Virus record (IMG/VR): IMGVR_UViG_3300009194_000040
Coordinates: 1-28,675 of that record
Length of the DNA: 28,675 bases
Direction: 5' to 3' (one strand)
From: a virus
Shown: in pieces, positions 5,802 to 10,646 of the stretch
How positions within the stretch are numbered: the first letter of the stretch is position 1
How the letters are laid out: every line of letters starts with the position of its first letter
Translations under genes and position numbers: made by a program
Notes under the pieces: model-generated
Seen by the model: only the letters and a program-made list of their open reading frames with translations
The model's database searches: none
Told to the model about the DNA's origin: nothing

Positions 5802-5874
5802 CTTTTTTATTGTATTGTCGACTTACTCACTCGGGAAGGAAGGGGTCTCGCGTTCACCTGTTTCTGGGAGCTGG
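5802..5874 (-). promoter_or_regulatory. Gap before packaging genes, possible promoter
   Basis: This 73-base gap contains TACAAT on the minus strand about 11 bases before the ATG at 5801, a 5/6 match to a sigma-70 -10 box. The hexamer 17 bases upstream (TTCCCG) is a poor -35. A transcript from this box would be nearly leaderless. It is listed because the gap separates a regulator from the packaging genes. The promoter call is weak. Confidence 0.25.
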
Positions 5875-6252
5875 TCAGGAGACTCCTTGACTTGTTGTGT
5901 TTGATGATAACGGGTTGTTATTGTTTAACAATAGCCGCTGTTCGTGTAGAAACTGCTCGTGCCCTTTTGCAATTATGTAAGCAACAGAACCGCGGGCCAC
6001 ACCGCAGGCCTTGGCGACATCTTCGAGTGTTAAACCACGGTCGCGCAACACATATGCCTTTCGACATATTTCCGGTGTGTGTACAGTAGTTGTCACGAGG
6101 TAGTCTGTTTCCGTGGTGTCGATGACATCACCGTCCTCGTTGACCTTGACGCTGGCCGGGTATGACATCCACCCGCGTTTAACTGCTCGAGCAACGAGGA
6201 ATCGGGCTTCAGCCAGAAGCATCGCATTGGTGACTGTAGATTTAAGAATCAT
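5875..6252 (-). CDS. Helix-turn-helix protein, putative regulator
   Basis: The 125-residue product has an N-terminal helical region (residues 8-30), a short acidic beta-like stretch, and a clear helix-turn-helix at about 67-97 (YVLRDRGLTLEDVAKACG, then VARGSVAYIIAKG) of the Hin/sigma-4-like type. The C-terminus is Asn/Ser rich and probably disordered. It lies between the replication genes and the packaging genes, so it could control late or packaging transcription (inference). The start is an ATG in an ATGA overlap with the zinc-finger gene upstream. The last part is relatively AT-rich compared with its neighbours. Confidence 0.7.
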   Translation of the reverse strand: MILKSTVTNAMLLAEARFLVARAVKRGWMSYPASVKVNEDGDVIDTTETDYLVTTTVHTPEICRKAYVLRDRGLTLEDVAKACGVARGSVAYIIAKGHEQFLHEQRLLLNNNNPLSSNTTSQGVS

Positions 6253-6554
6253 AGAAGTGATGGTTGAATATGTACTGCGAAAGTGTGCTTCTGCTGTTTG
6301 TTACCGATGATAGCGAATATGCGCTTGCGGTGTTGTGAGCCTGAATATCCGGGGTGACATACGCAAGCGAAACGGCCGTCATTCCAGATGATCAGGTGGT
6401 TACCGCCTTTGTCCTGGCCGGCCTCGTGACAGGCTGGGCAACGGCCAACAAAGCCACCCGATTGTTTGCGGAGGTTACCGACAAGGTTGAGCTGGAGGCC
6501 TGGAATGCCGTGGTCGACCTGTGGGGCGGATGGGGCGGATATTTTGAAACTCAT
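6249..6554 (-). CDS. Zinc-finger protein resembling a primase CHC2-type domain
   Basis: The 101-residue protein has Cys39-x2-Cys42-His43 and, after a short beta stretch (HLIIWNDGRFAC), Cys64-x-Cys66-His67. This is the arrangement of primase-type zinc ribbons that bind single-stranded template DNA. It is encoded just downstream of the PrimPol/SF3 gene but separated from it by an inverted-repeat cluster, part of which lies in its own first codons (SAPSAP). It may supply a template-recognition module in trans for the primase (inference). The ATG at 6554 has no Shine-Dalgarno site and an A/C-rich leader. Confidence 0.7.
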   Translation of the reverse strand: MSFKISAPSAPQVDHGIPGLQLNLVGNLRKQSGGFVGRCPACHEAGQDKGGNHLIIWNDGRFACVCHPGYSGSQHRKRIFAIIGNKQQKHTFAVHIQPSLL

Positions 6555-6694
6555 TGTGGTTGTAGATGCAGAATAGTCGATTTTTAGGAGCCATTAAGAG
6601 TTGGAAATTGCCGCCCCATCCGCCCCACATTGCATTTTCGTCAATGCTGGCGGGCCTAAAGTGTGGGGCGGATCTTTTTCGTATCCGCCCCACA
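6520..6694. repeat. Inverted GC-rich repeat cluster, candidate replication origin
   Basis: The 12-mer TGTGGGGCGGAT occurs on the plus strand at 6520-6531 and 6662-6673, and its reverse complement at 6618-6629 and 6683-6694. The last two copies form a perfect 12-bp hairpin with the 9-base loop CTTTTTCGT. The outer copies extend to a 19-base perfect inverted repeat, 6520-6538 against 6611-6629. A partial extra unit (GGGGCGGAT) follows at 6532. The cluster spans the 146-base gap after the primase-helicase stop and enters the next gene. There is no T-tract after the hairpin on the minus strand, so it is not a usual terminator. Repeats beside a P4/D5-type primase-helicase suggest initiator binding sites, by analogy. 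Confidence 0.6.
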
Positions 6695-6700
6695 TTTGGG

Positions 6701-8698
6701 TCATTCGAGGTTGTTACAGGCTTCATCGAGGCGGTAGAGCATGACGCGGAGGTAACCGCGGGTGCCTGAATCGTCACGGTCAGAGCGGTTGAGGTGCTTG
6801 GTCGGGATGGCCTGATGGACCTCGAGCATGAGCTCGGCGGCACGCCGCTGGAACTTCTTCTCAGGCTCGGAGGCCCACTCCTTGTTGCCGCACATCTGAA
6901 GGTAGGCCTGGAACAGTTCCTCGGTGCTGATGCTGTCCGCGGCCATGCTGGTGGGCTTGATGTGGTTGGTGATGAAGTAGCGGATCGAGTCGCTCTCTGA
7001 CAGAAGGCTGTCGATGCGTGCCCGCTGCTTGATGGTCACTGGGAACGAACGGCCTTGTTTCAATACACGCTGCAGTGATTCAGCGCCGGAAAGGAACCAG
7101 TTGAGAATACCGGGCCCCTCTTTATCAATCATCACATCGTGATAGTTTGGTATGACAGTTGATGGCTTAGGTTGTGAGAAGTCGAGCAGCAGCAGGCGTC
7201 GAGACCATGCACCGAGATCGCCCTGCACGTTCACTCTCAGTTTGCTATTGGCTGTGACAATGACATTCCAGTCACCGATCAGTGTCTTAACACCGTTGCG
7301 GTTCTTGAACTCTGCAATGATACGGTCGCCGCCGGTCATGGCCTTGAGGAACGATGATCCCTCGCAGGAGAGGAAGTCCGGGGCCACGTCGGCGCCAATG
7401 AGCAGGGTCTTGTCGTGGAACAGGCCGGCCTCGAAGCGCCCGCCGAGGTGGTTGGTGCGGAGCTCGGAGCAGTTCTCGTCGCCGACGAGGCGCCGGACGA
7501 CGCCGGCCACCGTCGACTTGCCGCCGCCGCCGGTGCCGGTCAGCAGGAGGATGACCTGTGGCTGGTTGCGTTGCAGGAGGGCCAGGCCGCCCCAGTGCTG
7601 CAGCATAAGCTGGTCTTCGGCCTCGGGCAGAGCGTGATCGAGGAAGGCCTGCCACATCGGGCTGGTGGCGCCTTCGACGTATCGGATGGGCGTCTGGTTG
7701 CGCGACATCCACTCCGGCGAGAAGCCATGCATCCCGTAGGGTGTGACGCGCAGGTCGACCATGACGTTCTCGGTGTGGACGATGGCGTCGGGGCGGTTGA
7801 ATGGCGCCCGCTCGACCTGAAGCTGAGCGGCCAGGTCGATCACGCCATTCGAGAACTGCGCGGTCAGCTTGGGCAGGAGGCTGCGCAGGTGTGGAGCGGC
7901 CTGGTCGGCGGCGTGGTCGAGGATGACTTTGCGGGCCATGGCCAGCACCCGCTGGCCGACTTCCTCCCGGGTCATGGACTGCCAAATGCCTCGGTCGGCT
8001 AGGTAGAAGTAGAAGCAGCCGGTGACGGTATCGAACAGAATGCGTTCCTTGGCCGCCAGGTAGGCCGCGAAGAATGGAGCCTGCAGCGTGCCGGTGCCTT
8101 GCTTCGAGAACACCCAAGGGTCGCCGTGTTGCTGCAGGAGCTCGGCGATTGCCTCGTTCTCGCCGGGCACCGGCCAGCCTTCGGGCCAGCGGATCTGGGA
8201 GAAGTCGAGGGTGATCGGAGGATTGTCGACCAGCACGGTGTACTCGCAGCCGGAGGGGTGGGTGCCCTTGACGGTCGAGAGGTTGCCGGTGCTGCGCCAT
8301 TCGTAGAGGGGTCGCCCGAGCTGCCGGCCATTGACCTCAACCATCTCGGTGGTGCTACGGGCCGATGAAGGGCCCGGGTAGGGCCCGGAGATGCGCACAC
8401 CGATCTGGGCGCCGCGGCGGCCTCGCCATCGGGCGGTGGTCTTCAGCTTCGGGTTGACGGCAAGGAAGGCATCGAGGCTCTGGTCATCGTCGAAGTCGAT
8501 CGCGCAGAACCCGCCGGAGTGCTCGCCCAGGCGAACGGCGACATTGCCGTGCTCGAGCAGGGCCTGATAGGTGGCCGCCGCGGTGCTCTGCAGGGTGTGC
8601 TGGGTGTACTTGACGAGCGGCACCTTAGTGCCCGGGCGGCAAGGCACTAGGAACAGCGGCGTGCCGAGCCATTGCTCGATCTCATGGGTGGACATCAT
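6701..8698 (-). CDS. Bifunctional primase-polymerase and SF3 helicase (D5/P4-like)
   Basis: This 665-residue protein combines an archaeo-eukaryotic-type primase-polymerase domain with a superfamily 3 helicase. The N-terminal part has AIDFDDD at 66-72 (metal-binding acidic motif) and KGTHPSG near 144-150, both typical of PrimPol domains. After a D5-like linker the helicase has Walker A GTGGGGKST at 388-396, then LLIGADV (Walker B region) and the motif around VIVTANSKLRVN, ending with an arginine-finger-like RRLLLLDF. It probably opens the origin and primes replication, possibly also extending primers. Two adjacent ATG codons are possible starts (8698 and 8695). No Shine-Dalgarno sequence is seen. 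The repeat cluster directly follows the stop. Confidence 0.93.
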   Translation of the reverse strand: MMSTHEIEQWLGTPLFLVPCRPGTKVPLVKYTQHTLQSTAAATYQALLEHGNVAVRLGEHSGGFCAIDFDDDQSLDAFLAVNPKLKTTARWRGRRGAQIGVRISGPYPGPSSARSTTEMVEVNGRQLGRPLYEWRSTGNLSTVKGTHPSGCEYTVLVDNPPITLDFSQIRWPEGWPVPGENEAIAELLQQHGDPWVFSKQGTGTLQAPFFAAYLAAKERILFDTVTGCFYFYLADRGIWQSMTREEVGQRVLAMARKVILDHAADQAAPHLRSLLPKLTAQFSNGVIDLAAQLQVERAPFNRPDAIVHTENVMVDLRVTPYGMHGFSPEWMSRNQTPIRYVEGATSPMWQAFLDHALPEAEDQLMLQHWGGLALLQRNQPQVILLLTGTGGGGKSTVAGVVRRLVGDENCSELRTNHLGGRFEAGLFHDKTLLIGADVAPDFLSCEGSSFLKAMTGGDRIIAEFKNRNGVKTLIGDWNVIVTANSKLRVNVQGDLGAWSRRLLLLDFSQPKPSTVIPNYHDVMIDKEGPGILNWFLSGAESLQRVLKQGRSFPVTIKQRARIDSLLSESDSIRYFITNHIKPTSMAADSISTEELFQAYLQMCGNKEWASEPEKKFQRRAAELMLEVHQAIPTKHLNRSDRDDSGTRGYLRVMLYRLDEACNNLE

Positions 8699-8707
8699 AT
8701 CGTGAAA

Positions 8708-9979
8708 TCAGGTCAGCGGTTCGCGGAGTTCAAAGCGGATGGCTTCCTCGGAGATGAACCAGCCCTTGGGCCATTCCTTCAGGTGCAGGCCGCCCAACGT
8801 CCTGACTCGGCTCAGCGCGACATAGCCTTGCCCGGGCTCTCGGGCCGCTCGGATGTCGATGTAGGCTGCGTCGAGAGTCAGGCCTTGGGCACGGTGTATG
8901 GTCATGGCGTAGGCGAGGCGGAGCGGATATTGCCACACGGTGACGCCCAACGTCTCGAAAAACCATTTCCTTAGCCCCACAGAAATGGTTTTGCCGCGGG
9001 TGTACACGTCGATGGTGTCGCCGCATTTGCCGGTGACGAATCCGATCTGGCCATTGGCGAACCCAGTCTCGGCGTCGTTGGTTGTGAACATCACGGCCGC
9101 CCCGATCTTGATCTGCAGCATCCGAGGCGTGCTCATGTTCTTTGTGGCGAAGTCGACGGCCTGTGTCACGCCCTTGGTGCGTGCCTCGACGGTGATGAGA
9201 TCGCCGGTAACGGTCTCGAGGCGGTAGCTGTTCCACTTGTCGACCTGAGCATTGTGGGTCAGCAGATGGGTGATCTCGGCCTTGGGGAACCATGATACAC
9301 GGGAGCGCAGCACGTCGGCGTCGGTCTTGGCCAGCTTACCGATGCGGAAGCCGCTGAGGGCCTGAACGAACAGCCTGTCGTCCTGGCGCCGGACGGTCTC
9401 GAGCTTGATCGTCTTGAAGTCGGCCTCGGCCCAGGCATCGGAGCGGAAGGCCCAGTCGTAGGGCTTGGACTGGTCGATGCGCACCGGCGGTAGCTGCAGG
9501 AAGTCACCGAGCACGATGATCTGCAGCCCGCCGAACGGCTTGGCATCCTCTCGGAGCAGCTTCAACCAGAAGTTGAGGAAATCGAATTGGCGCCCCGCCA
9601 TCATGCTGATCTCGTCGATCACGAGGATCTCGGCCTCCTCGACCCGCTTGCGGGCGTTGTGGATGGTTGGCTGATCGAACAGGCGGGTTGCGGCCTGATC
9701 GAAGGTTTCGTTGTCGCCGGGCCCGAGCTGCATCCCGCACCAGCGGTGCACCGTGGTGCCGCCGATGTTGAGAGCTGCAATGCCTGTGGGGGCGGTAATG
9801 GCGACGTTCTTGGTGGTCTCGATCTGGTGCAGGAATTGCCGCAGCAGATAGGACTTGCCGGTGCCGGCCTGCCCGGTCAGGAACACGTTCCCTCCGGTGG
9901 TCGCCCAGGTGATGAACCGGGATTCGGGCGTGAACTCCGGGAAGTCGGTGTCGATGACCGGACAGGTGGCTTGTGTCAT
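8708..9979 (-). CDS. PIF1-family SF1B DNA helicase
   Basis: The 423-residue product is a PIF1-like 5'-3' helicase. Walker A is GQAGTGKS at residues 36-43. Motif Ia is ITAPTGIAALNIGG. Walker B is VIDEISM at 120-126. Motif III is GDFLQLPPV near 195. The C-terminal region has AMTIHRAQGLTLD and GQGYVALSRVRTLGGL, the classic family ending. It likely helps fork progress, recombination or removal of DNA structures. The GC-rich hairpins near 6.6 kb are possible substrates (inference). It sits between the exonuclease and the primase-helicase with very short gaps, without Shine-Dalgarno sites, in one operon. Confidence 0.95.
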   Translation of the reverse strand: MTQATCPVIDTDFPEFTPESRFITWATTGGNVFLTGQAGTGKSYLLRQFLHQIETTKNVAITAPTGIAALNIGGTTVHRWCGMQLGPGDNETFDQAATRLFDQPTIHNARKRVEEAEILVIDEISMMAGRQFDFLNFWLKLLREDAKPFGGLQIIVLGDFLQLPPVRIDQSKPYDWAFRSDAWAEADFKTIKLETVRRQDDRLFVQALSGFRIGKLAKTDADVLRSRVSWFPKAEITHLLTHNAQVDKWNSYRLETVTGDLITVEARTKGVTQAVDFATKNMSTPRMLQIKIGAAVMFTTNDAETGFANGQIGFVTGKCGDTIDVYTRGKTISVGLRKWFFETLGVTVWQYPLRLAYAMTIHRAQGLTLDAAYIDIRAAREPGQGYVALSRVRTLGGLHLKEWPKGWFISEEAIRFELREPLT

Positions 9980-9980
9980 A

Positions 9981-10646
9981 TCAGTAGAGTTCCGGGCAAA
10001 GCACGTCGTGAACCTTCTGAGTCAGCTCGACATCCTGCACGGCATAGGCGATGGCGGCCTCACGATCCCGGAGCCACAGGTCGGAGAAGTCGGCGCCGCT
10101 GCCAGACTTTTCTCCGAGGTTCAGGTGACGGCAGATTGCAGCCAGGCTGCCGTGGGCTCGGTTGTCTCCGAGCTGCCAGATCTCCCGTAGGTCGACGATG
10201 AGGTCGTTCCAGTAACGGCCATGCCGGAGCCAGTAAGGCGGCGTCACACGGTGCTTCCAGGAGCGTTTGTAGAGGAACGGCAGGTCGAAGGCCTTGGTGT
10301 TGAATCCGACCAGTCGTGGCTGGCGCTCGAAGCCGGCAACGATCTTCCACCATTGCACCAGCATTTCCTTTTCGCCGTCGGCATCGGAGCACAGCACCCG
10401 GGCCTTCTCGCCGGGCAGTTTGTATCCGATGCAGAGCACCTGGCCGCTCAATGCATCCAAGGCAGCGTTCTTGATGTAGTCGGTGACGTGGTTCTCCTCG
10501 GCCTTCTGGATCTTCTCGGCGATCAGGTCGGGATTCTTGATGTTGCCGAGTTTGACCTGCGACGGGTCAAACGGCGGGATGACGAGCTCAGGTCGCGGTA
10601 ACGGGCCGGTCTCGATATCGAATATGATGATGGGATTAGCGGGCAT
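9981..10646 (-). CDS. DEDDy 3'-5' exonuclease
   Basis: The 221-residue product has the exonuclease fold of DNA polymerase proofreading domains. Exo I is FDIETG with Asp10 and Glu12. Exo II is GFNTKAFDLPFL with Asn116 and Asp121. Exo III is YAVQD with Tyr201 and Asp205. This makes the full D-E-D-D set with the tyrosine variant. It resembles the predicted stand-alone family related to PolB exonuclease domains. No polymerase domain is attached and none is found elsewhere in the window. It may proofread for the primase-polymerase or process recombination ends (inference). The ATG overlaps the end of the preceding gene by 11 bases. Confidence 0.9.
   Translation of the reverse strand: MPANPIIIFDIETGPLPRPELVIPPFDPSQVKLGNIKNPDLIAEKIQKAEENHVTDYIKNAALDALSGQVLCIGYKLPGEKARVLCSDADGEKEMLVQWWKIVAGFERQPRLVGFNTKAFDLPFLYKRSWKHRVTPPYWLRHGRYWNDLIVDLREIWQLGDNRAHGSLAAICRHLNLGEKSGSGADFSDLWLRDREAAIAYAVQDVELTQKVHDVLCPELY

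Follow-up and report, generated by a model that had tools for sequence, protein, structure and literature searches.

What is the function of the short inverted repeats that follow the gene for a PrimPol/SF3 primase-helicase in this phage genome? The window analyzed here is the entire 28,675-nucleotide stretch of the viral record, and the initial annotation had described four exact copies of a 12-mer in it, suggesting that they may be either a replication origin or an autoregulatory site bound by an initiator of the P4/D5 type. A recount in the record confirmed that TGTGGGGCGGAT occurs four times without mismatch, twice on each strand, at 6520-6531 (+), 6618-6629 (-), 6662-6673 (+), and 6683-6694 (-). 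Zero copies were found elsewhere in the 28,675 bases, the pattern read backwards gave 0 copies, and by our own arithmetic approximately 0.003 occurrences of a random 12-mer are expected in the record. The count with two mismatches allowed is not unusual. The pair making a 12-bp hairpin and the 19-base inverted repeat of the earlier description were also recovered. The hairpin spans 6659-6697 with a 12-bp stem and a 9-nt loop, and the longer inverted repeat extends to 25 nt per arm at a 92% match, with 19 exact pairs in succession and a spacer of 60 nt.

The conserved repeat unit was found to be 9 bp, as opposed to the 12-mers described initially. There are six units in the window, with TGGGGC beginning at 6522, 6531, and 6664 on the + strand and GCCCCA beginning at 6613, 6622, and 6687. 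The outer arm of the long inverted repeat (6520-6544, +) contains the units at 6522-6527 and 6531-6536, and a partial fifth copy of the 12-mer at 6529-6540 corresponds to the second 9-bp unit of this arm. The inner arm (6605-6629, -) contains, in the letters of the + strand, GCCCCA at 6613-6618 and 6622-6627. Each arm of the short hairpin carries a single unit, TGGGGC at 6664-6669 and GCCCCA at 6687-6692. The spacer of the long repeat (6545-6604) is 38% GC versus 60% for the record, within the lowest 1% of 60-mers, and is a candidate DNA unwinding element. This unusual AT-richness is counted in favor of an origin.

The coordinates agree with the initial placement of the cluster directly past the stop codon of the PrimPol/SF3 gene and reaching into the next gene, since one arm lies within the first ~12 codons of the gene at 6249-6554 (-). 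This gene encodes a small stand-alone zinc-binding domain, similar to the T7 primase zinc finger and matched by tblastn to the zinc domains of phage primases/helicases; it starts within the repeat and is kept downstream of the primase in relatives. At its C-terminus the product has IQPSLL (in relatives LDISLL), a sequence similar to sliding-clamp-binding motifs. The presumed initiator is encoded at 6701-8698 (-) and, from Pfam and PHROG matches, combines a PrimPol domain (Prim-Pol, PF09250), D5_N, an SF3 helicase (DUF5906), and a C-terminal winged helix. Its closest solved relative by sequence is 7ola, a "DNA primase" (E 3.8e-19) that we take to be SaPI5 Rep. No TOPRIM match was found in the window primase, the primase domain being Prim-Pol (AEP), and in this the window differs from the phage P4 alpha/ori system with its TOPRIM-type domain. 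The primase gene is preceded, on the same strand, by genes for a PIF1/Dda-like helicase (8708-9979) and a PolB-type exonuclease (9981-10646), and thus the replication genes are grouped. Approximately 0.7 kb from the repeats, beside the gene for the terminase small subunit, positions 5845-5858 probably represent a physical genome end with a 14-base terminal repeat. Near-identical contigs from several metagenomes begin at 5845-5858, two of these (29,198 and 29,427 bases) have their other end there as well, and in a fully read contig the 14-base terminal sequence GTCTCGCGTTCACC is common to both ends. The segment is likely a cohesive-end site.

The initial annotation held that a usual terminator was not supported, and our scan found neither terminator-like nor promoter-like sites at the repeats. 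An intrinsic terminator was rejected because a GC-rich stem with a T run is not present. The same scan bears on whether the primase-helicase binds the repeats mainly as an operator, regulating the primase operon or the zinc-finger gene, with replication starting elsewhere. Initiators often autoregulate, and one arm overlaps the start of the zinc-finger gene. We nevertheless judge this function improbable, as the cluster is located after, not before, the primase gene, there is no sigma-70-like promoter at the repeats, homologues keep the cluster with or without a zinc-finger start nearby, and the equivalent element of plasmid pRN1 is an origin (PMC4234260).

Homologous primases of 60-99% identity were collected from about 90 viral contigs. 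The inverted repeat is present in all 58 (~60) distinct sequences with a readable interval between the primase and the zinc domain. The prediction that the repeat would persist at the same spot in diverged relatives was thus borne out in every relative with both genes, and its absence from close relatives, which had been named as evidence against an origin, was not observed: the sequence differs and the inverted repeat stays. The arm words are TGTGGGGCGGATGGGGCGG in the window, TGAGACGGATGAGACGG in L158, TTTGGGACGGAGGACGGC in L149, TTTGGGGCGGCGGGCGGC in L127, TGTGGTACGGATGTCAC in L085, TTGGGACGGTTGTGAC in L175, and TGTGGCACACAAGTCACA in L082. The arm cores are complementary at 91% of positions within genomes and 60% between genomes, and the true pairing of arms is the single best among 5040 permutations. 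In the window the hairpin and the long repeat have one word in common, and in L018 and L082 these two elements likewise share a word, a different one. The units of all words share G-N-N-R-C, usually as TGNNRC, with two units per arm spaced by 9 bp. Imperfect arms occur in L035 and mixed words in L331. The third codon positions of the zinc gene are quieter in the arm (0.20 bits) than elsewhere (0.35 bits). A scan for additional GGGGC relatives gave the primase C-terminus only in those already known, and scans of viral contigs with the L174 and L252 primases gave nothing new.

It could be argued that the arms have no function and owe their similarity to template switching or to gene conversion acting between the inverted repeats. 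Long inverted repeats can self-correct during replication, and the change from GGGAC to GGGGC in L029 and L127 affects all units at once. We find this the hardest of the alternatives to credit, since it leaves unexplained why the repeat stays in a fixed location among primases of 60-99% identity and also in ~37%-identical homologues, as well as the 9-bp skeleton and the link to the wing residues described below. Matched changes in the two arms would also be expected if a long hairpin in the transcript controlled translation of the zinc-finger gene or the stability of the transcript. The start codon is just outside one arm, and the predicted fold is very stable, the cluster folded as a DNA strand being much stabler than its shuffles (z -8.0). 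Among the arm mismatches, though, 53 are G-U and 57 are A-C, so that there is no excess of G-U in these counts, which ignore relatedness; the distant loci L347 and L367 have direct units only, and the word tracks residues of the primase. No Rfam family matched the cluster up to E = 1, and a known structured RNA was rejected for this reason. Control through the RNA is very unlikely in our estimation.

The C-terminal domain of the primase-helicase (residues 548-665; 6704-7057, -) was modeled separately with AlphaFold, and the model (pLDDT 80) has the secondary structure of a winged helix. The AlphaFold model of the full-length protein is poor (pLDDT 57) and was set aside. The best fold match of the domain model among solved structures is the DNA-binding domain of RFX1 on X-box DNA, with a modest E of 0.0085. 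RFX1 contacts DNA largely through its wing. In the model, residues 633-637 (codons at 6788-6802, -; T-K-H at 633-635) lie where the first strand of the wing ends, and these top word-predicting columns are candidate specificity determinants. Their location in the wing and the fold match to RFX1 bound to DNA are counted in favor of reading by the winged helix.

In an alignment of 50 close primases with ~654 columns, only column 634 separates two non-sister GGGGC viruses (K) from 47 GGGAC viruses (N). The window has the GGGGC word and K634, as do all GGGGC viruses recovered with the primase C-terminus. Across 33 loci, base 2 of the word is C wherever residue 635 is D, and G wherever it is anything else. 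Within the D635 group, N, H, or D at 634 occurs with GGAC and T or R with ATAC. K634 is found with GGGGC and N or H634 usually with GGGAC. The residue classes had been picked after seeing the data, and the columns were therefore also ranked without choosing classes. The highest AMI values among 441 scorable columns were obtained for columns 635 (0.60), 634 (0.49), 637 (0.47), 402 (0.43), and 633 (0.42), using word labels that were assigned by the analyst from several scans, here as well as on the tree. Column 634 ranks first in a close-pair test, differing in 6/6 pairs that change the word and in 2/8 pairs with the same word. On a tree from which the C-terminal domain had been omitted, independent pairs agree in 10/10 cases, and in 7/7 on the well-supported branches; none of the tree-independent contrasts is significant singly. 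The residue code was derived from the same loci that support it. Prediction rules fixed beforehand were applied to four new loci in a small test. Clusters were found in two of the four, both of which obeyed the base-2 rule; one matched the full word (TGGGAC), and the other had TGGTAC where a GGAC-type word was predicted. The covariation with wing residues supports an iteron word that is bound by the primase-helicase, and because the word changes together with amino acids in the DNA-binding tail, the repeat is very probably the docking site of the enzyme.

A degenerate inverted pattern recovered the same layout in the Verrucomicrobia contigs L227, L252, and L211, beside primases of 36-37% identity, where it falls within the 3' part of the zinc gene's coding sequence. 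In L338, L341, L343, L344, and L348 the layout is just past the primase, and in L411 it occupies the 3' part of the initiator's coding sequence. The coding context thus shifts among loci while the DNA layout stays, and this is counted in favor of an origin. Sampling of 388 genomes in the phylum to which the L227 genome belongs gave 39 with a homologue; detectable clusters are usually ≤~0.6 kb after the primase and have the words TGGGAC, TCGGAC, or TCATAC. Searches for homologues in two other phyla gave none, and a third phylum gave 4, two of them informative. No such cluster was found near many distant homologues, several of which have RTD or RND. Some of the words were found by scanning for four preset words, and an unbiased scan missed the family's own clusters in L018, L149, L127, and L044. 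L347 and L367 contain three direct units with no inverted partner, and inversion is therefore not essential. Of the 119 genome matches obtained with the degenerate inverted pattern, most have the appearance of scattered 9-bp repeats without linkage to a primase, and these were set aside. MAGs of Victivallales, Acidobacteria, Planctomycetes, and similar groups (L191, L195, L208, L226, L260, and others) contain scattered 9-bp TGGGACNNA arrays that run in either orientation, with several per genome in some and apparently no linkage to a primase. Similar inverted 9-bp clusters (L177:3621-3700, L184:12659-12737, L192:7104-7159, and L286:3814-3870) adjoin, or lie within the 3' coding part of, genes for helicases that by eye appear to be of other families (DUF927-like); those of L192 and L286, from Psychrobacter, are of the latter kind. 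These suggest that the inverted 9-bp arrangement extends beyond PrimPol initiators.

From the layout, its conservation, and the covariation, we consider it highly probable that the cluster is an iteron origin bound by the winged helix of the primase-helicase. In the proposed mechanism, the working unit would be the iteron TGGGGC every 9 bp, two per arm, facing one another across the AT-rich spacer, and the small upstream hairpin would add one unit per side. Each unit would be read by the C-terminal winged helix, with residues 633-637 of the wing setting the word. Protein bound to both inverted arms may then load two SF3 rings head to head, after which the AT-rich spacer would melt and the PrimPol domain would prime replication there. 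The initial proposal of an origin or autoregulatory site is thereby upheld by the covariation as to binding by an initiator; of the two candidate functions for this phage the origin appears preferable and the operator is disfavored. The initial annotation had also looked to GC skew. This proved uninformative: the main genes are on one strand, and for a near-complete relative the cumulative curve is monotonic.

Recognition of a fold instead of a sequence, at a single-stranded hairpin, is the stem-loop model proposed for pRN1. The mutants of pRN1 that disturb the stem-loop lose replication (PMC4234260), and the predicted fold of the window cluster is strong. The TGNNRC skeleton with its 9-bp spacing, the association of residues with words, and the homologues with direct repeats instead indicate reading of a double-stranded sequence, and we regard a hairpin origin as a rather remote prospect. 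Downstream origins of the iteron type, here favored for the window, are already known as a kind from pRN1 and SaPI. The shared iteron skeleton and the wing-residue code were not found in the open-access papers searched, which leave most subscription journals uncovered. With somewhat better than even confidence, we propose that the stem-loop origins of PrimPol/SF3 replicons, which keep their structure as their sequence varies, in fact consist of iteron arrays that face each other and are recognized in double-stranded form by an RFX-like wing, that residues 633-637 form a code predicting the word, and that these replicons drift into mutually incompatible specificities through paired changes in wing and word. 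For pRN1-type replicons this would provide a candidate bound motif, TGNNRC at 9-bp intervals, in most cases as inverted copies flanking AT-rich DNA, together with a few residues that seem to determine it. Origins in metagenomic phages could be located from sequence by this motif, and origin choice and incompatibility become directly testable for PrimPol/SF3 phages, prophages, and plasmids.

Several known replicons are comparable. In N15, PY54, and phiKO2 the origin is within the 3' part of the repA primase-helicase gene, which encodes a TOPRIM-type primase. The ends of these repA genes contain TGGATC words in both orientations, and they were rejected as a match since the word and spacing differ. 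The closest counterpart is pRN1 of Sulfolobus, in which a 100-bp stem-loop 54 bp after the orf904 AEP-SF3-wHTH gene is needed for replication and works when moved; among relatives its sequence varies and the fold is kept (PMC4234260). The window likewise has an AEP/PrimPol, SF3, and winged-helix initiator followed by a large inverted repeat of conserved structure and varying sequence, the pRN1 element having 21-nt arms and a 58-nt loop downstream of the gene, dimensions close to those in the window. pRN1 differs in being an archaeal plasmid whose origin was proven by plasmid assays, whereas the window cluster is a predicted origin. The origin was described by its authors as being without iterons, and the motif bound by the initiator was not identified (PMC4234260). 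In our own reading of the published sequence, the pRN1 arms TTGGACACTATGGACATA contain two units (TTGGAC and ATGGAC) 9 bp apart, and the pRN2 arms CGGACCGATAGGACAGG also contain two units 9 bp apart. For the Bordetella phages BPP-1/BIP-1, a stem-loop 3' of the replication gene has been proposed as the origin (PMC4234260). In BPP-1 (L406), also a PrimPol-type phage, a 48-nt inverted repeat follows the primase at a distance of ~0.4 kb, and both of its arms contain ACGAGGC units at 9-bp intervals. This repeat is a candidate for the published stem-loop; it differs from the window in its own word and the longer distance from the gene. In related AEP primases, a winged helix has been put forward as the part that recognizes the origin (PMC5862659). 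SaPI Rep recognizes iterons just downstream of its own gene via its C-terminus (PMC7581432), and the window likewise has multiple short repeats directly 3' of the initiator gene, here as 9-bp-spaced units with an AT-rich spacer. SaPI Rep and Cch2 of SCCmec are, as proposed for the window protein, D5/SF3-type helicases that load themselves and recognize, through the C-terminal domain, iterons situated directly past the gene encoding them. Cch2 differs in having AAGTG iterons and in that binding needs direct repeats, not inverted ones (PMC7581432).
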